23,292 nucleotides of DNA from a virus. Both the position numbers and the translations under genes were made by a program. The stretch lies in the IMG/VR virus record IMGVR_UViG_3300044618_000193, positions 1 through 23,292 of that record. One strand, given 5' to 3'. Below the pieces are notes generated by a model. It ran no database searches, was not told the origin of the DNA, and saw nothing but the letters and a program-made list of their open reading frames with translations. Of this stretch, positions 3,915 to 15,348 are shown piece by piece; the stretch's first letter is position 1; each line of letters starts with the position of its first letter.

Positions 3915-4087
3915 GCCTTGGCCGAGTACCCTTCAAGCATTGGCCGCTTTTGCTTGCGAGTCTTGGCCGCAGCTTTAAATGCAGCATCTGTCGGCGCACC
4001 CTCGGATCCTGGGCGACGCATCTTCTCGCCGCTGCCTTCTTTGATGCGCTCACGTTTTGCGTGGATGTTTTCGTAGAGTCCCGGCAT
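3911..4087 (-). CDS. Small basic phage protein (MPGLYxNIHAKRxRI type)
   Basis: This 58-residue protein begins MPGLYENIHAKRERIKEGSG and continues EKMRRPGSEGAPTDAAFKAA. I recall the same N-terminal block in many small phage proteins of unknown function. It is basic, with an SGEK-type motif at residues 19-22 matching its two downstream neighbours. It starts at ATG 4087, immediately after the stop of the 205-residue gene, with GGAGG in the preceding coding sequence as ribosome site. It ends in an ATGA overlap with the DUF6321-like gene. Confidence 0.78.
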   Translation of the reverse strand: MPGLYENIHAKRERIKEGSGEKMRRPGSEGAPTDAAFKAAAKTRKQKRPMLEGYSAKA

Positions 4088-5242: not shown

Positions 5243-6796
5243 TTAAGCAAAAATATCGAAGTCCATCTTGGCCACTGTCATGCCGGGCGCTCTGCCGCCT
5301 AGCTGGTGGGTTCTTGTCATTCGGTTATATTCGCCGCCGCCCAGCATCAGGTAGCCAAATGAGTCGCCAATGTGTGAGTGTTCGTTCTTGTTGGGTGCGT
5401 CTCTGAACCGCTCTTGGCCTGCGCCGACGGCAACCCGCTTGAAGTGGTATCCACCGGCTAGAGACTTCCTCAGTAGCTTGCAGTTGCGGTTGACGATTAG
5501 CCCTGGCTTGCCGTCAATTAGGCGCTGCATGGGCGCTGCTGCGGCTTCTCGGCGTACTTTAAAGTCGTTGCTAGCTGTCGGTTGTGCGCGCAAACCAAGC
5601 GTTCTCAGGTAGTCAAATGCGGTGACCTCATAGATGCCATCACGCTGCATACCGGCTGGGTCACCCCAAATCATAACCTGATGGTTTGGGTACCGCGCAT
5701 TGAGTTCAGCGAGCAGTTGCTGGCCGAACCGCTCCAAACCCATATCAAAGGTGACAATCTCATGGTGGATCACCCAGCGGCCATTAGGCAAGCGCTGGCC
5801 AATGGTAGCCGCCGGGGTTAATCCGAAGTCGAGTCCGAGCTGGATCGGTACATCAGGCGATACCTCGGTGTCACCGGACATCAGGGAGTCGTTATATTCA
5901 GGCCAGACGGGTCTACCCTCTTGCACATAGGTGTAGAGCCCACCAGCGTAGCACTTGATCCAATCCAAGTTCTTACCCAGCAGCATCTGCTGATAGTAAC
6001 CACCCGGCAGGTTGTTGACATTCTCGGCCTTGGGGTTGACCTTCCACCACTTGCCGGCAGAGAAGATATGATCGTTTGCCTCTGGGTTGTCTGGTAGATC
6101 GGCTGGATCGACTTCAGTGATCCCGCCTGGTTGCTTCCAAAACTTCCAGGCATACGCGCCGGTCATCTTCTCTTTCTCGGCCATCTTATGCCACCAGTGG
6201 TCGTCATCCATCGGGTTGGTATCCATCCAGATACCGTGCCAGGTAGCGCCGCCGTCCCTCTTTGTGGGGTAGCGTCCTACCCGGTGCGTCAGACCGTCAA
6301 TCACCGCCTTGGGCAGCTCCCGCGCCTCGTTGACCCACGCACCTGTTAGCTCCAAAGAGAGCAGCTTCCTGACATCTTTAGGCTGGTCGAGCGCCAAAAA
6401 GATGACCTCCATGTCGATGCCTGCGGCCTCACCACGGGCTGGTAGCCGGATATGGTGGGTAATCGGCGGGGTGTAGAGCATCGGCCCGAAAGTAGACTCA
6501 GGAAAGAGATCCAACCAGGTTTTGATGGTGGTGGTCTTTAGCATCGGGTAGCTGTTTCGCACCACCGCCCAGCGGGTGTAACGGATGTTATCAATCGGGC
6601 TCGGCTTCTGCTGAATCGCCTTGGTAAAGATCTTGGCCGCACAGCCGTAGCTCTTGCCGGATCCCACCGGACCCATGATCCCCTGCACAAAAGCGTTGCT
6701 CTTGAAGAAATCGTAGATCACCGGGCTCTGGCTGAAGTCGAACCGCAGACCCTCGCTCGCTACCGTCTTGCTTGACTGCTCTTTTGTTTTTGACAC
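5243..6796 (-). CDS. terL: Terminase large subunit (ATPase and nuclease)
   Basis: This 517-residue packaging motor and genome-cutting enzyme is complete. The Walker A motif is GPVGSGKS at residues 42-49 and the Walker B-type segment is GAWVNEA at 152-158 with its catalytic Glu. MDTNP (191-195) follows at the coupling-motif position. The RNase-H-like nuclease domain shows Asp323 (LGLDFGL), Asp379 (WGDPAG) and Asp478 (HIGDSFGYL). The start is GTG at 6796, placed by GGAGG five bases upstream; no ATG lies nearby. The small subunit gene ends 18 bases upstream, giving the usual TerS-TerL pair. Confidence 0.97.
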   Translation of the reverse strand: MSKTKEQSSKTVASEGLRFDFSQSPVIYDFFKSNAFVQGIMGPVGSGKSYGCAAKIFTKAIQQKPSPIDNIRYTRWAVVRNSYPMLKTTTIKTWLDLFPESTFGPMLYTPPITHHIRLPARGEAAGIDMEVIFLALDQPKDVRKLLSLELTGAWVNEARELPKAVIDGLTHRVGRYPTKRDGGATWHGIWMDTNPMDDDHWWHKMAEKEKMTGAYAWKFWKQPGGITEVDPADLPDNPEANDHIFSAGKWWKVNPKAENVNNLPGGYYQQMLLGKNLDWIKCYAGGLYTYVQEGRPVWPEYNDSLMSGDTEVSPDVPIQLGLDFGLTPAATIGQRLPNGRWVIHHEIVTFDMGLERFGQQLLAELNARYPNHQVMIWGDPAGMQRDGIYEVTAFDYLRTLGLRAQPTASNDFKVRREAAAAPMQRLIDGKPGLIVNRNCKLLRKSLAGGYHFKRVAVGAGQERFRDAPNKNEHSHIGDSFGYLMLGGGEYNRMTRTHQLGGRAPGMTVAKMDFDIFA

Positions 6797-6814: not shown

Positions 6815-7228
6815 TTATTCTGCGTTAGGTGCGACCACGTTGACATCAATCACGCTAGGCTTGTCGTTCTCGTCAGGGTTGTCCAGCAATCCACTCGCTT
6901 TAGCCAGCAGACGCAAAACACCTACCTTGTCATACAACTCAATGTCCAAGAAACTGTTGCCATCCTTGTCTGTTCTGACCGATACCTTCTTAATGGCCTG
7001 CAAAGCGTGTTCAGGGATCTGGTGCGCCGCCTTAACCTTTACATTGCCATCCTCATCCCAATCCATAATGTCCGTAATCTTGGTATTGGCCATGCAAAGC
7101 AAAGCGTAGCTGACCGCTTCTCGGTTTTGAACCAGGGTGTTAGAGCGCTCCAGCCTACGCTGAATCGAGCGTGTACCACCCCAGTTCGTCATAGGCGGGA
7201 TAACCGTTGACTGCTTTCGGGAAACCAT
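6815..7228 (-). CDS. terS: Terminase small subunit
   Basis: About 137 residues lie directly upstream of the large terminase gene. A helical N-terminal part (TRSIQRRLERSNTLVQNREA) would recognise DNA. The C-terminal block IPEHALQAIKKVSVR...LYDKVGVLRLLAKASGLL matches the end of small terminase subunits, where a Leu-rich helix follows a beta hairpin. ATG at 7228 is preferred over in-frame TTG (7240) and GTG (7237) because GGTGA stands five bases before it. Here the start lies five bases beyond the upstream stop codon. Assignment relies on position plus this C-terminal pattern. Confidence 0.82.
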   Translation of the reverse strand: MVSRKQSTVIPPMTNWGGTRSIQRRLERSNTLVQNREAVSYALLCMANTKITDIMDWDEDGNVKVKAAHQIPEHALQAIKKVSVRTDKDGNSFLDIELYDKVGVLRLLAKASGLLDNPDENDKPSVIDVNVVAPNAE

Positions 7229-7233
7229 GTCAG

Positions 7234-7524
7234 TCACCAAGGAATGTCGTCATCAGGAGCAGCTACCTGCGGCTGAACCTGTGGCTGCGGCTGGTAACCG
7301 TTAGATTTGGCCTCACTGTGCGCAGATCCCCTAGAAACCTTCACCCCACCTATCTTAACCTTATAAAAGTCATCACCCGCCTGGGTCTTCTTAGGTGTTA
7401 CCTCCAGCCAATGTATCGTGCCATCAGGCAACATAACATCACCCTTAAACTCAGCGTGCCAATCTTCCTTCTTATCCTTGTTGATAAACGCACTACCCTG
7501 ACCGGGCTTGTGTTCATACGCCAT
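7234..7524 (-). CDS. Small protein with SSB-like acidic tail
   Basis: This 96-residue protein starts MAYEHKPGQGSAFINKDKKE. Its strand-rich body (residues 20-70, with WHAEFKGDVMLPDGTIHWLE) is compatible with a small beta-barrel. A Gln/Pro linker (YQPQPQVQPQVAAP) leads to a C-terminus ending DDDIPW. Bacterial SSB proteins end DDDIPF, a tip that recruits replication and repair proteins, so an SSB-like or SSB-mimicking role is a reasonable inference. Start ATG 7524 has a strong AAGGAGG. It lies between the replication initiator and the terminase pair. The fold itself is not proven. Confidence 0.65.
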   Translation of the reverse strand: MAYEHKPGQGSAFINKDKKEDWHAEFKGDVMLPDGTIHWLEVTPKKTQAGDDFYKVKIGGVKVSRGSAHSEAKSNGYQPQPQVQPQVAAPDDDIPW

Positions 7525-7526
7525 AA

Positions 7527-7546
7527 AAACCTCCTTAATGAAAAAG
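7527..7546 (-). repeat. Ribosome-site repeat, copy 1
   Basis: This 20-bp unit contains the GGAGG ribosome site of the SSB-tail gene. It matches 7643-7662 at 18 of 20 positions, 116 bp away. Confidence 0.75.
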
Positions 7547-7642: not shown

Positions 7643-7662
7643 AAACCTCCCTGATGAAAAAG
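7643..7662 (-). repeat. Ribosome-site repeat, copy 2
   Basis: Second copy of the unit at 7527-7546. It places GGAGG eight bases before an ATG (7637) that is followed after only four codons by TGA. It looks like a leftover translation start or a leader peptide. Confidence 0.7.
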
Positions 7663-7986: not shown

Positions 7987-8922
7987 TTAAACGGCATCGC
8001 CTGTCCGTCCAGCATCCCGATGTAGCTGCATGATGGAGTCAATCAGCACTCCGGGTTGTGGGATTGGCAACCCTTCACCCTGATACAAGTTAAGCAACAT
8101 TGCAATATCAGCATCTAGTTGTTCAATCGTTAATGGTTGCACAGAACTTAACCTAAGTACTTCCTCCTTAGTTAAACCTTTAATCTTATGTTTAATAAAA
8201 ACCTTAATATATTCCTCCTTAGGTGTTCTTTCTGTGTTCTGCTCAACCTCATTAGGTTGCGCATAGGTTGCGTATGTATTGCCTACTTTTTCATCACTTG
8301 GTGCAACCTTATTGGGTTGCTTATGTCTGGCTTTCTTTGCTGCAATCTCTGCTTTCATCTTAGCAACAGTTACGGTGTCCCCTGACTTTGGCATGGTGTA
8401 TTCCTTTGGTGGTTGGGTTATAGGTTTAACAACTCCTTTGATCATCTCCTGGATGCGTCTTAGTCCTTCAGGATCGGGTGTCATATCGTTCATCTGCTCC
8501 TCCTTCATGTAGGGTGGTCTGGTGTCTTCAATGCGGCTGGTGACTGCAATGGCTGTCTCTGTGTCGATGGTCGGATCAAAGACAACCCGCATAGTGTCTG
8601 GCCGGATGCCTCGGTAGTGCCGGCTTACAACCTCAACATAGCCGGCTTCCTTGAGCTTCTTTAGCTGCTTACTGATGGCCTGCCGGCTGACTCCCGCGTC
8701 CTGGGATAAGCGCAGCTGGCTTACCCAGGTAACGCCTGCCCGGTTGCAGTAGCTGCAGACCAGTGCCAGGATCCGAAACATCCCGTCAGTCAAGCGCCTG
8801 TCCTGCAATGCGCGTATTGGCATCACAGCAACCTTGCGCTGGTCTGGCGTGGGATCCTTCTCCTTGACCCTGGGCTTCTTCGGTAGTTTGAACTCAATCA
8901 CATTGCCAGGCTGTGGAATCAC
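7987..8922 (-). CDS. Winged-helix replication initiator-like protein
   Basis: This 311-residue protein carries an N-terminal winged helix-turn-helix at about residues 38-105. The supporting segments are LTDGMFRILALVCSYCNRAG, WVSQLRLSQDAGVSRQAISK and QLKKLKEAGYVEVV. This resembles phage and plasmid replication initiators. The rest is a hydrophilic linker (about 150-230) and a small helical C-terminus. The coding sequence for the linker contains iteron-like repeats (8244-8320) beside an AT-rich tract, the arrangement known from lambda O. No ATPase motif is present. GTG at 8922 overlaps the upstream stop (GTGA). A regulator rather than an initiator remains possible. Confidence 0.72.
   Translation of the reverse strand: MIPQPGNVIEFKLPKKPRVKEKDPTPDQRKVAVMPIRALQDRRLTDGMFRILALVCSYCNRAGVTWVSQLRLSQDAGVSRQAISKQLKKLKEAGYVEVVSRHYRGIRPDTMRVVFDPTIDTETAIAVTSRIEDTRPPYMKEEQMNDMTPDPEGLRRIQEMIKGVVKPITQPPKEYTMPKSGDTVTVAKMKAEIAAKKARHKQPNKVAPSDEKVGNTYATYAQPNEVEQNTERTPKEEYIKVFIKHKIKGLTKEEVLRLSSVQPLTIEQLDADIAMLLNLYQGEGLPIPQPGVLIDSIMQLHRDAGRTGDAV
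8141..8220. other. AT-rich tract beside the iterons (possible unwinding element)
   Basis: By hand count this 80-bp stretch has about 28% G+C, far below its surroundings. It lies inside the initiator gene directly beside the iteron-like repeats. It also contains a direct repeat TTCCTCCTTAG (two copies, near 8161 and 8212). Such a tract next to iterons is typical of origins, but function is inferred. Confidence 0.5.
8244..8320. repeat. Iteron-like repeats inside the initiator gene (candidate origin)
   Basis: There is an inverted repeat CAACCT-catt-AGGTTG at 8244-8259. A near copy, GCAACC-ttattg-GGTTGC, lies at 8303-8320, so equivalent bases are exactly 60 bp apart. Two tandem 11-bp units, AGGTTGCGCAT and AGGTTGCGTAT, occupy 8254-8264 and 8265-8275, one helical turn apart. 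A related GGGTTGCTTAT lies at 8314-8324. These are read directly from the sequence; origin function is inferred from the initiator context. Confidence 0.62.
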
Positions 8923-12839: not shown

Positions 12840-13138
12840 TGACCGGTCAGATGCTGCGCGACGCACAGCTGGCGTTCTTTGAAATGCGAGACTCCGATTT
12901 CCTCGAGCACTGCCGCACTATCGCTGCTGACATTGCCAAGCAGCATGGCCAGGTGTCGATCAATGAAGTACGCAAGGCCATCAACATACCTGAAGGCGTG
13001 CATCCATCTGTGCTTGGCGCTGTTTTCAAGTCAAAAAAATTTATAGCAATCGGTTACACCGAGGCTACCCACAAGGCCGCACATGCTAGGGTCGTGCGCG
13101 TCTACAAACTCAAGGAGGAAACATGTCAGGAAAGCTAA
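12836..13138 (+). CDS. Possible winged-helix protein, unknown function
   Basis: About 100 residues. Residues 20-95 read like a small winged helix: LEHCRTIAADIAKQHGQVSI, NEVRKAINIPEGVHPSVLGA, a recognition-helix-like segment VFKSKKFIAIG, and a wing-like YTEATHKAAHARVVRVYKL. ATG at 12836 (or the next codon, 12839) is chosen; the open frame extends upstream into the recombinase gene without a ribosome site. It overlaps the exonuclease gene by 16 bases, and carries that gene's AAGGAGG. Position with recombination genes suggests DNA binding; this is inference. Confidence 0.7.
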   Translation: MMTGQMLRDAQLAFFEMRDSDFLEHCRTIAADIAKQHGQVSINEVRKAINIPEGVHPSVLGAVFKSKKFIAIGYTEATHKAAHARVVRVYKLKEETCQES

Positions 13139-14076
13139 CCCCAAACACAATGATGTCAGCCAGCAGGCTTCCTGCGCTGTTGGGATTGTCTAAATATCAA
13201 AGCCCCAATGATGAGCTGCAGACCACCATCAATGCAATTGCCGGCATTGAATCTGACTTTGAGCAGAATGAATCAATGGCCTGGGGCGACCGGCTTGAGG
13301 AAATTATCCTGCGCGAAACAGCAAAGCGACTCCAGCTCGCAGACCTGAAGACTGAGTTTAACAAAGCGTTCTATCACGAAACACTGCCGCTGGCCTGCAG
13401 CCTGGATGGCTGCGCTGATGGTGCCGGGCAGATTGTCCGCACCGACCCAGACGCTGGGATCTATGTGATCGGCAAAGACTCCATCGAATTAGCCGGCGTT
13501 GGCGTGCTTGAGGCCAAGCTCACCGCAGTACAGCCCGAAGAAATACCGGCACTCTACCGTGGTCCTGTGCAGCTGCAGGCTCAGATGGACATCATGCAGG
13601 CCAAGTGGGGATGCGTGGCCGTGCTGTACCAGGGAACCACGCTGCGGATCTTCCTGTTTGAGCCGCACGCACAGACGCTGGCCACCATCAAGGCAGCCGT
13701 GCTTGAGTTTCAGCACAAGGTAGAAAAATTCAGAGCAACCGGCGAGATCGATTTCTACAACCCGGCGAGCAGCAAAGACGCTGACCGCATGTATCCGACC
13801 GCAGACGAAAGCCGAACGGCACACTTGCCGGAGCGAGCGCAGCATCTGGTCGGGCAGATCGTGGCCGCCAAGGCAGACATTGAGCAGGCAGAACAGAGGC
13901 GCACTGAAGCAGAGACGGAGTTGAAAGCAATGATGGGCGAGGCATCGAAGGCCAAGGTCGGCAACTACGAAATCCGCTGGCCAATGCGCTTCTACAAGGC
14001 AGCACCCCAGCGCGTCGTGCCGGCCAAGGATGCCTACAGCATTCGTCAATCCACACTATCAATCAAGGAGCTTTGA
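13123..14076 (+). CDS. YqaJ-type (lambda Exo-like) recombination exonuclease
   Basis: This 317-residue nuclease of the PD-(D/E)XK class is expected to resect dsDNA to make single-stranded tails for its annealing partner. Visible active-site blocks are WGDRLEE (54-60), SLDG with Asp95, and LEAK with Glu130 and Lys132, followed by PVQLQAQMDIM. The C-terminal part (230-270) is a helical, Glu-rich coiled coil. ATG 13123 has an ideal AAGGAGG. The RecT-like gene follows after one small gene, reproducing the exonuclease/annealase pairing of lambda Exo-Beta and RecE-RecT. Confidence 0.9.
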   Translation: MSGKLTPNTMMSASRLPALLGLSKYQSPNDELQTTINAIAGIESDFEQNESMAWGDRLEEIILRETAKRLQLADLKTEFNKAFYHETLPLACSLDGCADGAGQIVRTDPDAGIYVIGKDSIELAGVGVLEAKLTAVQPEEIPALYRGPVQLQAQMDIMQAKWGCVAVLYQGTTLRIFLFEPHAQTLATIKAAVLEFQHKVEKFRATGEIDFYNPASSKDADRMYPTADESRTAHLPERAQHLVGQIVAAKADIEQAEQRRTEAETELKAMMGEASKAKVGNYEIRWPMRFYKAAPQRVVPAKDAYSIRQSTLSIKEL

Positions 14077-14261
14077 TGGACAACCGAGAGCTGACAGACA
14101 TTGAGCAAGCGCACGCTGCAGCCTGCGTCGCGCTGCTTAATGCAGTGCCGACCATGACCGAAGAGCAAGCAAACGAAGTGGTGGACAGCCTGTCTGTCTT
14201 ATTGCTTCAGACATTAAATACTTATGTACCAGGGGATGATGATGCAATTGACTACAACTAA
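14076..14261 (+). CDS. Small acidic protein of unknown function
   Basis: This 61-residue protein is mostly helical (ADIEQ-type N-terminus, VALLNAVPTMTEEQANEVVD) and ends acidic (GDDDAIDYN). ATG 14076 follows AAGGAG by six bases and overlaps the exonuclease stop (TGATG). Its 3' end overlaps the start of the RecT-like gene by about 20 bases and carries that gene's AGGGG. It is thus sandwiched between exonuclease and annealase and may be an accessory of that pair; no family recognised. Confidence 0.7.
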   Translation: MDNRELTDIEQAHAAACVALLNAVPTMTEEQANEVVDSLSVLLLQTLNTYVPGDDDAIDYN

Positions 14262-15348
14262 GGGATTCGCTCCCGCCACTATGGGCGAGGCGATGGAGTT
14301 TTCAAAGATGCTGGCCGACTCTAGCATGGTCCCACGCGCCTACCAGGGAAAACCACAGGACATCATGGTCTGCGTGCAGTGGGGCTATGAGCTCGGCCTG
14401 GCACCCATGCAGGCGCTCCAGAATATTGCCGTAATCAATGGCAAGCCCAGCGTGTACGGCGACGCTATGGCCGCGCTGGTGCAGGCTAGCCCGGTCTGCG
14501 ATGGTATCGACGAAACCTTTGAGGGAGTCGAGGGGACGGGTGAGTTTGCCGCTGTCTGCATAGCCAGGCGCAAAGGCCGGCAGCCAGTGACAATTAAGTT
14601 TAGCGTCAATGATGCCAAGCGTGCTGGTCTTTGGAATAAGCAGGGACCGTGGACGCAGTACCCAAAGCGGATGTTGCAGATGCGAGCTCGCGGCTTCGCC
14701 CTGCGCGATGCCTTCCCTGATGTCTTGAAGGGATTGATCAGCGCCGAGGAGGCCGCCGACTACCCTGATGATGCCAAGCCCAGGCCAATCAAAGATGTCA
14801 CGCCCATCCCAGCAAACCCGCTGGATATGATTGCGCCGCCCGCACCGCCGGAGCCAATTGAGATTCAAGAGATAGTTGACGGTGTAGTTGAGATCATGAA
14901 TCAAACTCCAGTTGAAGATCTAATCGCATCTGGGAAAGCATTCTTTGATGCCGTGATGGCGGCGCAGGATACTGATGAATTGCAGAATGAGCCAGAGGAT
15001 TCTGATGCGGTAGAGAGTTATCCGCAGGGTTACCCGCTGATGGTGCCAGACATGAAGGCCGAGCGAGCCGAGGGTGAACCGGTGCCGGCCTTACTCAATA
15101 GCACCTGGTCCGACATTGATGCCTGGTGCGATGCGTATGAGGAGCTCGCAGACAAAACCGCACGCGCTGGTAAGCGTCCAGCCAGAGAGCGCATGACAAT
15201 CCTCAAAGAGCTCCGCAACGCTAACCAATCGGTCATCGAGAAGATCGACCCGGTCAAGCGGCTGCGGCACTCTGCTTCCTATGCCAAACGCCTGGCAGCG
15301 CTGGGCGCATCAATGGGTGGATCAGCAGAAAAAAACCCCGGCACTTAG
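14242..15348 (+). CDS. RecT-like single-strand annealing protein
   Basis: This 368-residue protein has an N-terminal core (to about 170) with MVPRAYQGKPQDIMVCVQWG, YELGLAPMQALQNIAVINGK and PSVYGDAMAALVQASP. WTQYPKRMLQMRARGFALRD follows. I recognise this as a phage RecT-type pattern. The rest is an acidic, Pro-rich linker and a basic helical C-terminus (ERMTILKELRNANQ). Four in-frame ATGs exist (14224, 14236, 14239, 14242); AGGGG at 14231-14235 best fits 14242. The TAG stop lies inside the hairpin of the convergent lysis terminator. Partner of the YqaJ-type exonuclease. Confidence 0.85.
   Translation: MQLTTTKGFAPATMGEAMEFSKMLADSSMVPRAYQGKPQDIMVCVQWGYELGLAPMQALQNIAVINGKPSVYGDAMAALVQASPVCDGIDETFEGVEGTGEFAAVCIARRKGRQPVTIKFSVNDAKRAGLWNKQGPWTQYPKRMLQMRARGFALRDAFPDVLKGLISAEEAADYPDDAKPRPIKDVTPIPANPLDMIAPPAPPEPIEIQEIVDGVVEIMNQTPVEDLIASGKAFFDAVMAAQDTDELQNEPEDSDAVESYPQGYPLMVPDMKAERAEGEPVPALLNSTWSDIDAWCDAYEELADKTARAGKRPARERMTILKELRNANQSVIEKIDPVKRLRHSASYAKRLAALGASMGGSAEKNPGT

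Follow-up and report, generated by a model that had tools for sequence, protein, structure and literature searches.

Bacterial single-stranded-DNA-binding (SSB) proteins recruit partners through a C-terminal six-residue tip. The locus analyzed here raises the question of why a small phage protein, encoded beside the terminase genes, ends in a tip of the same type, and what such a protein might do. The window is the whole of an IMG/VR record, a linear virus fragment of 23,292 bases. The initial annotation described a 96-residue protein with a tail nearly equal to the SSB tip DDDIPF, and this is borne out by translation of the ORF, which starts with the ATG at 7524 and whose C-terminal end reads AAPDDDIPW-stop. 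The DNA pattern of the tip occurs once in the window and in none of 100 shuffles. The 96-residue ORF and its DDDIPW end are real and not a product of chance, since relatives keep an acidic-hydrophobic-Pro-Phe/Trp end despite variable linker length and bodies of down to 20% identity. The features that bear on the question are collected in Table 1.

Table 1. Positions of the SSB-like gene, its parts and the genes discussed with it in the window
Feature	Position	Strand	Basis
Large terminase subunit	5243..6796	-	PHROG 2, E 6.7e-18
Small terminase subunit (TerS-like)	6815..7237	-	Pfam Terminase_2, E 1.7e-4, below cut-off
SSB-like protein of 96 aa (whole ORF with its stop)	7234..7524	-	ORF translation; PHROG matches of relatives
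SSB-type tip DDDIPW, residues 91-96	7237..7254	-	Conservation in relatives
Linker, residues 64-90, Gln/Pro-rich, predicted disordered, length variable among relatives	7255..7335	-	
Body, residues 1-63, four predicted beta strands	7336..7524	-	AlphaFold2 and alignment of relatives
Strong Shine-Dalgarno-like stretch AAGGAGG, 5 nt before the ATG of the SSB-like ORF	7530..7536	-	Read from the sequence
O-like replication initiation protein (gene lies upstream of the SSB-like ORF)	7987..8922	-	PHROG 678, E 5.4e-9
YqaJ/RecE-like exonuclease	13123..14076	+	Pfam YqaJ, E 4.9e-9; PHROG 434, E 2.2e-36
RecT-like annealing protein, candidate tip partner	14224..15348	+	Pfam RecT, E 4.8e-7; PHROG 561, E 2.2e-51

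The surroundings of the gene start have features of their own. A 20-nt direct repeat (90%) lies at 7527-7546 and 7643-7662, one copy at the start of the SSB-like gene and the other 116 nt upstream, each with a Shine-Dalgarno-like stretch on the minus strand. No clear gene is present in the stretch of approximately 460 bp between the O-like gene and the SSB-like one. Between 7200 and 8100, a promoter scan found 0 against 1.0 expected and a terminator scan found 2 against 1.1 expected, neither count being informative, and an Rfam scan of the window returned no match.

The strength of the case for a functional tip lies in its conservation across relatives. A tblastn search of 50,697 phage records at E <= 0.01 returned two matches, the "ssDNA binding protein" of the cultured Methylophilales phage MEP301 (ORF50; 41.9% identity over residues 3-75, E 1e-11) and a hypothetical protein of BUCT555, and a scan of viral contigs with six patterns, one of them the tip itself, gave 54 pattern matches and 50 loci at E <= 1e-3. 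Because the tip was among these patterns, the scan was redone with body-only queries, namely the first 60 residues of locus L034 and of the window protein, which yielded 24 and 18 loci on 24 distinct contigs. All 24 contigs have complete ORFs ending in hydrophobic-Pro-Phe/Trp, and an acidic rule holds in 20 of them, or in 16 of the 19 distinct proteins. A poorly conserved tail, named at the outset as an observation that would speak against an SSB-type role, is thereby excluded.

A wider scan started from the distant relative L063, with the best 80 of 285 relatives kept; the tip is in none of the patterns used, the L063 protein's own tail was part of the tblastn query, and two of the best 80 ORFs are cut by a contig end. 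Among the 78 complete ORFs from these best 80 of 285, a loose rule for the ending holds in 65 and the acidic rule in 64; collapsed to 62 distinct complete sequences, the counts are 53 and 52. Contigs from these scans are often near-identical, so the tip counts are not independent. By eye, nine of the 13 ORFs failing the loose rule retain the final Pro-Phe/Trp and lack the large hydrophobic residue ahead of it; of the other four, two have an extra Asn (LPFN) and two have five extra residues past IPF (L140 and L152). In these four loci (L140:4001-4273, L152:4001-4306, L147 and L166), where one residue (Asn) or five lie beyond IPF/LPF, the usual free C-terminal Phe is thus not exposed. A scan of bacterial genomes gave 21 pattern matches, with no confirmed relative among them.

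The same picture is obtained from a set of 50 sequences, composed of the window protein, 27 hand-picked relatives (near-duplicates dropped) and 22 picked at <90% identity; the relatives in it share between 74% and 20% identity with the window protein. Pro is found at position -2 in 45/50, Phe or Trp at -1 in 45/50 and at least two acidic residues at -8 to -4 in 44/50; in the body, Gly10, Lys18 and Gly28 are invariant. Tip codons vary synonymously (GAT/GAC, ATT/ATA/ATC, CCT/CCC/CCG/CCA and TTC/TTT) across 26 rows, 25 relatives and the window, and because the residues stay unchanged, codon comparison indicates that the tip is under selection. The background rate of such tips is very low: outside the family filter, 20 of 2623 ORFs (ATG start, >=60 aa, 175 records) carry one, and closer reading assigned 14 of these to the family, as members that the filter had missed, and six to one ERF protein group.

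The relatives were also compared with annotated families. Among 50 relatives, PHROG 18154 is matched by 41 and PHROG 7364 by 34 (E <= 0.001), and both PHROGs bear the name "single strand DNA binding protein"; the corresponding counts in an earlier set, of 31 sequences and at E <= 0.1, were 22 and 13. The window protein alone matches no model in Pfam, the PHROGs (18154 and 7364 included) or NCBIfam, and is homologous across its body to annotated members of the family, among them MEP301 ORF50 and the 50 viral loci mentioned above. Relatives annotated as SSB occur in the named phages phiEcoM-GJ1 (gp15), Acinetobacter DMU1, Erwinia Y2 and Burkholderia Bm1. As far as seen, the PHROG and GenBank names are based on similarity: the annotation note of phiEcoM-GJ1 gp15 cites sequence similarity only, and MEP301 ORF50 is likewise described by similarity in the account of that phage (PMC8024684). 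Our searches of the open-licence literature yielded no experiments on this family, ssDNA binding included.

The window protein has no match to PF00436 (canonical bacterial SSB), PF05037 (DUF669) or PF10991 (Enc34/T7-type SSB), and the latter two are absent among the Pfam families matched by the 50 relatives; sweeps of 23 records with PF10991 and PF05037 gave 0 matches and no control genome matched either, so these sweeps are no evidence of absence. DUF736 (PF05284) is matched by 3/50 relatives (best E 0.0023) and not by the window protein. The window protein is thus best placed as a new and divergent representative of a widespread, little-studied family of phage SSB-like proteins that already bears a name.

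The predicted structure gives additional insight into the body. Two AlphaFold2 models, from 30 and 50 aligned sequences, agree on four strands (residues 10-14, 26-31, 37-46 and 52-61/63) and no helix, with mean pLDDT of 84-92 by ten-residue blocks over residues 11-60, mostly <60 in the tail, and pTM of 0.50 and 0.48. The strand-rich body and the Gln/Pro linker of the initial annotation are both recovered here, the latter as a Gln/Pro-rich stretch within the mostly low-confidence residues 65-96. The suggested OB fold is not supported by these predictions, which show a four-stranded sheet with no recognizable OB fold and a body smaller than a normal OB domain.

Solved structures gave no significant match. 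Against the PDB by sequence, the window protein returned chance-level butyrophilin rows only and the profiles reached best E values of 0.21 and 1.1, at noise level; Foldseek gave 0 PDB matches at E <= 0.001, its top rows being unrelated proteins (AMPK sensor, ELMO1, ribosome factors) and its mycobacterial SSB rows having a probability of 0.11-0.14. VIA-align returned no row reaching Z 5, with unrelated rows up to Z 4.4, and no OB-fold SSBs of the PF00436 type among the 50 matches listed, which does not exclude an OB fold. Rows tied with unrelated ones included Pur-alpha (3nm7; Z 4.0, rmsd 4.0, 51 aligned), WHY2 (4kop; Z 3.5-3.6, rmsd 5.6-7.2, 60-67 aligned), the T5 PC4 homologue (4bg7; Z 3.1-3.2, rmsd 3.4-4.4, 49 aligned) and other PC4-type proteins (Z 2.4-2.5), all of which are ssDNA binders with curved sheets. 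Against viral models, eight matches reached E <= 0.001, all to phage proteins for which the output gives no functional name; a protein named as SSB, from Vibrio phage JSF9, stands at rank 12 (E 0.018). A non-OB fold of the body is possible on the basis of these models.

Placing the gene into its genomic context links it to recombination and replication. Where an extended-flank locus covers enough upstream sequence, as in L069, L071, L073, L075, L076 and L081, both RecT and YqaJ are found; the remaining extended loci start close to the SSB-like gene or come from distant phages without RecT/YqaJ matches. Ten upstream proteins from eight records with more distant members comprised four ERF, two YqaJ, one PDDEXK, one RusA and two unmatched proteins, and 32 of 57 records have a match to an O-like initiator upstream of the SSB-like gene. 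Among 22 longer or complete records, RecT is present in five (four over cut-off) and ERF in nine others, 14/22 in all, and the eight without either match include DMU1, phiEcoM-GJ1, Y2 and Bm1. A canonical SSB (PF00436) was found in none of these 22 related records nor in the window (six frames), with the control matching in 10/14 genomes and the IMG/VR records possibly being fragments.

From the family annotation, the replication and recombination gene blocks, the conservation of the tail and the lack of a canonical SSB match in these records, we consider the product of the SSB-like gene likely to be a minimal phage SSB with a tip that recruits partners active in ssDNA processing, probably the phage RecT and/or host proteins. 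In such a mechanism, the ~63-residue beta-sheet body, probably as an oligomer, would coat phage ssDNA that is exposed at replication forks or produced by the YqaJ-type exonuclease, and the flexible linker would present the C-terminal DDDIPW. By analogy with the HK620 SSB, whose tip recruits Sak4, the RecT annealase encoded by the phage would be the most likely recruit, and/or host proteins that recognize DDDIPF, the tip of bacterial SSB. Host partners are proposed because phages of this group seem to depend on replication by the host; the authors of the MEP301 description report no DNA polymerase gene in that phage and infer that it depends on its host (PMC8024684). Counting against a minimal SSB are the similarity-based names, a window protein that matches no model, the lack of a significant solved structure, a body below OB size, nine contigs in which the protein is tipless and the 8/22 records without RecT or ERF.

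These nine contigs (L038-L046) also bear on a different role. Their SSB-like protein keeps the body and ends in DFSDFGM or DFSDFGI without a tip, and the ERF protein directly upstream, whose ORF ends at 4001 (3263 in L045), terminates in EEKDLPF, EEEDLPF or EDEDLPF (E[ED][EK]DLPF) in 9/9; the Pfam ERF match was tested on one such protein (L046) and in the records of L039 and L046. Four other ERF proteins near relatives do not end in a tip (L049, L052, L156 and L090, the last named as ERF by its annotation and by an ERF search of its record). It could be speculated, at rather low probability, that the protein is a recombination adaptor, itself binding ssDNA weakly or not at all, whose body attaches to the annealase or exonuclease and whose tip links these to host-SSB-coated DNA or to host proteins. 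The location of the tip on ERF instead of on the SSB-like protein, as if tip and annealase formed one unit, and the linkage with RecT/YqaJ, ERF and RusA would fit such an adaptor. They are set against the PHROG name and against DMU1 and Bm1, in whose records, without a RecT or ERF match, the neighboring protein gene is a DNA polymerase (with a tRNA between in Bm1).

A decoy was the other possibility raised initially beside a minimal SSB; the latter is retained as the best reading on PHROG names, gene context and tail, and the former has gained no evidence of its own. A decoy body would not bind ssDNA, and its free tip would fill the pockets with which host repair and replication proteins receive the SSB tip, blunting these proteins during infection. 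A tip so close to the bacterial one, a linker that could present it freely and a body whose ssDNA binding is a prediction are all compatible with this idea, which we nevertheless judge improbable: a pure decoy would not need the three residues that are invariant across 50 diverse relatives, the PHROGs of the family are named SSB, its genes adjoin exonuclease, ERF, RusA or polymerase genes, no canonical SSB was found in the 22 related records, and our literature search found no phage decoy of this kind.

The place beside the terminase genes, initially called unusual, is instead the rule in this phage group. A TerS match is present in 40 of 57 records and lies within 120 nt of the SSB-like match in 37 of these (maximum observed, 75 nt), and MEP301 ORF50 also precedes its terminase. 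The exceptions are L036, L037 and L058; in L036 (1577-2011) and L037 (802-1236), the SSB-like gene is separated from TerS by a methyltransferase-like match. The likely GTG start of TerS in the window overlaps the SSB-like stop (GTGA), the gene tool listing a TTG start at 7240. A role as a packaging accessory that is translated together with TerS, the tip being incidental, would suit this tight adjacency and is very improbable, given the 17/57 records in which the gene occurs and the retrieved sequence, from a short locus or a distant phage, shows no TerS match, the distant relatives that adjoin recombination or polymerase genes, and the conserved tip.

The junction with TerS may also be reflected in the last residue of the protein. 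At 7234-7237, TGGTGA (Trp codon plus stop) holds a GTG in frame with TerS. Among the relatives, a Trp end accompanies the TGGTGA junction and Phe ends mostly accompany TTCTGATG. The Trp tip may thus be coupled to the GTGA start overlap, and the window's branch may have Trp because TGGTGA provides TerS with its overlapping GTG start.

If the minimal-SSB reading is correct, the name SSB would rest on firmer ground than transferred annotation for a large and barely studied family of phage proteins, and the tip would predict which annealases and host proteins are docked by its members. This would bear on the dependence of RecT-type recombination on SSB tips. The nine ERF contigs offer a natural experiment on the required position of the tip. 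Phage SSBs have further been described as triggers of bacterial defence (PMC10732053). A bolder synthesis, of rather low probability, would have the family as phage SSBs whose body is a four-stranded, non-OB sheet of ~60 residues, perhaps related to the ssDNA-binding sheets of PC4, Whirly or PUR proteins, and whose bacterial-type SSB tip serves as a recruiting module that can be carried from protein to protein; one lineage would have moved this tip from the SSB to the adjacent ERF, and phage and host recombination partners would be docked via one shared, swappable peptide.

The window protein can be compared with SSBs of several designs. Like canonical bacterial SSB (PF00436), it combines a C-terminal tip with a disordered linker, and unlike it, it has a shorter body, no PF00436 match and no recognizable OB fold in the models. 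The Enc34 ORF6 and T7 gp2.5 type (PF10991) is likewise a phage SSB with a disordered acidic tail, and such tails matter in SSBs of this type; Enc34 ORF6 differs in being an OB-fold variant with 179 modelled residues (PMC5686142), and the window family has no PF10991 match. The HK620 SSB is, by analogy, the closest tested precedent for recruitment by a tip and is proposed to work alike, as its SSB-like last six residues, NDYPPF, are reported to be needed for recruitment of the annealase Sak4 and for stimulation of annealing; it belongs to the DUF669 family and is described as a 21.3 kDa tetramer (PMC5928155), the window protein being about half that size. MEP301 ORF50, annotated as ssDNA-binding protein, is of the same family as the window protein, ends in EDDLPF and stands directly before TerS with TerL downstream, in a phage that is also described as having a resolvase-domain gene and YqaJ (PMC8024684). 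It differs from the window in having RusA directly upstream in place of the O-like initiator, and a Phe tip where the window has Trp.
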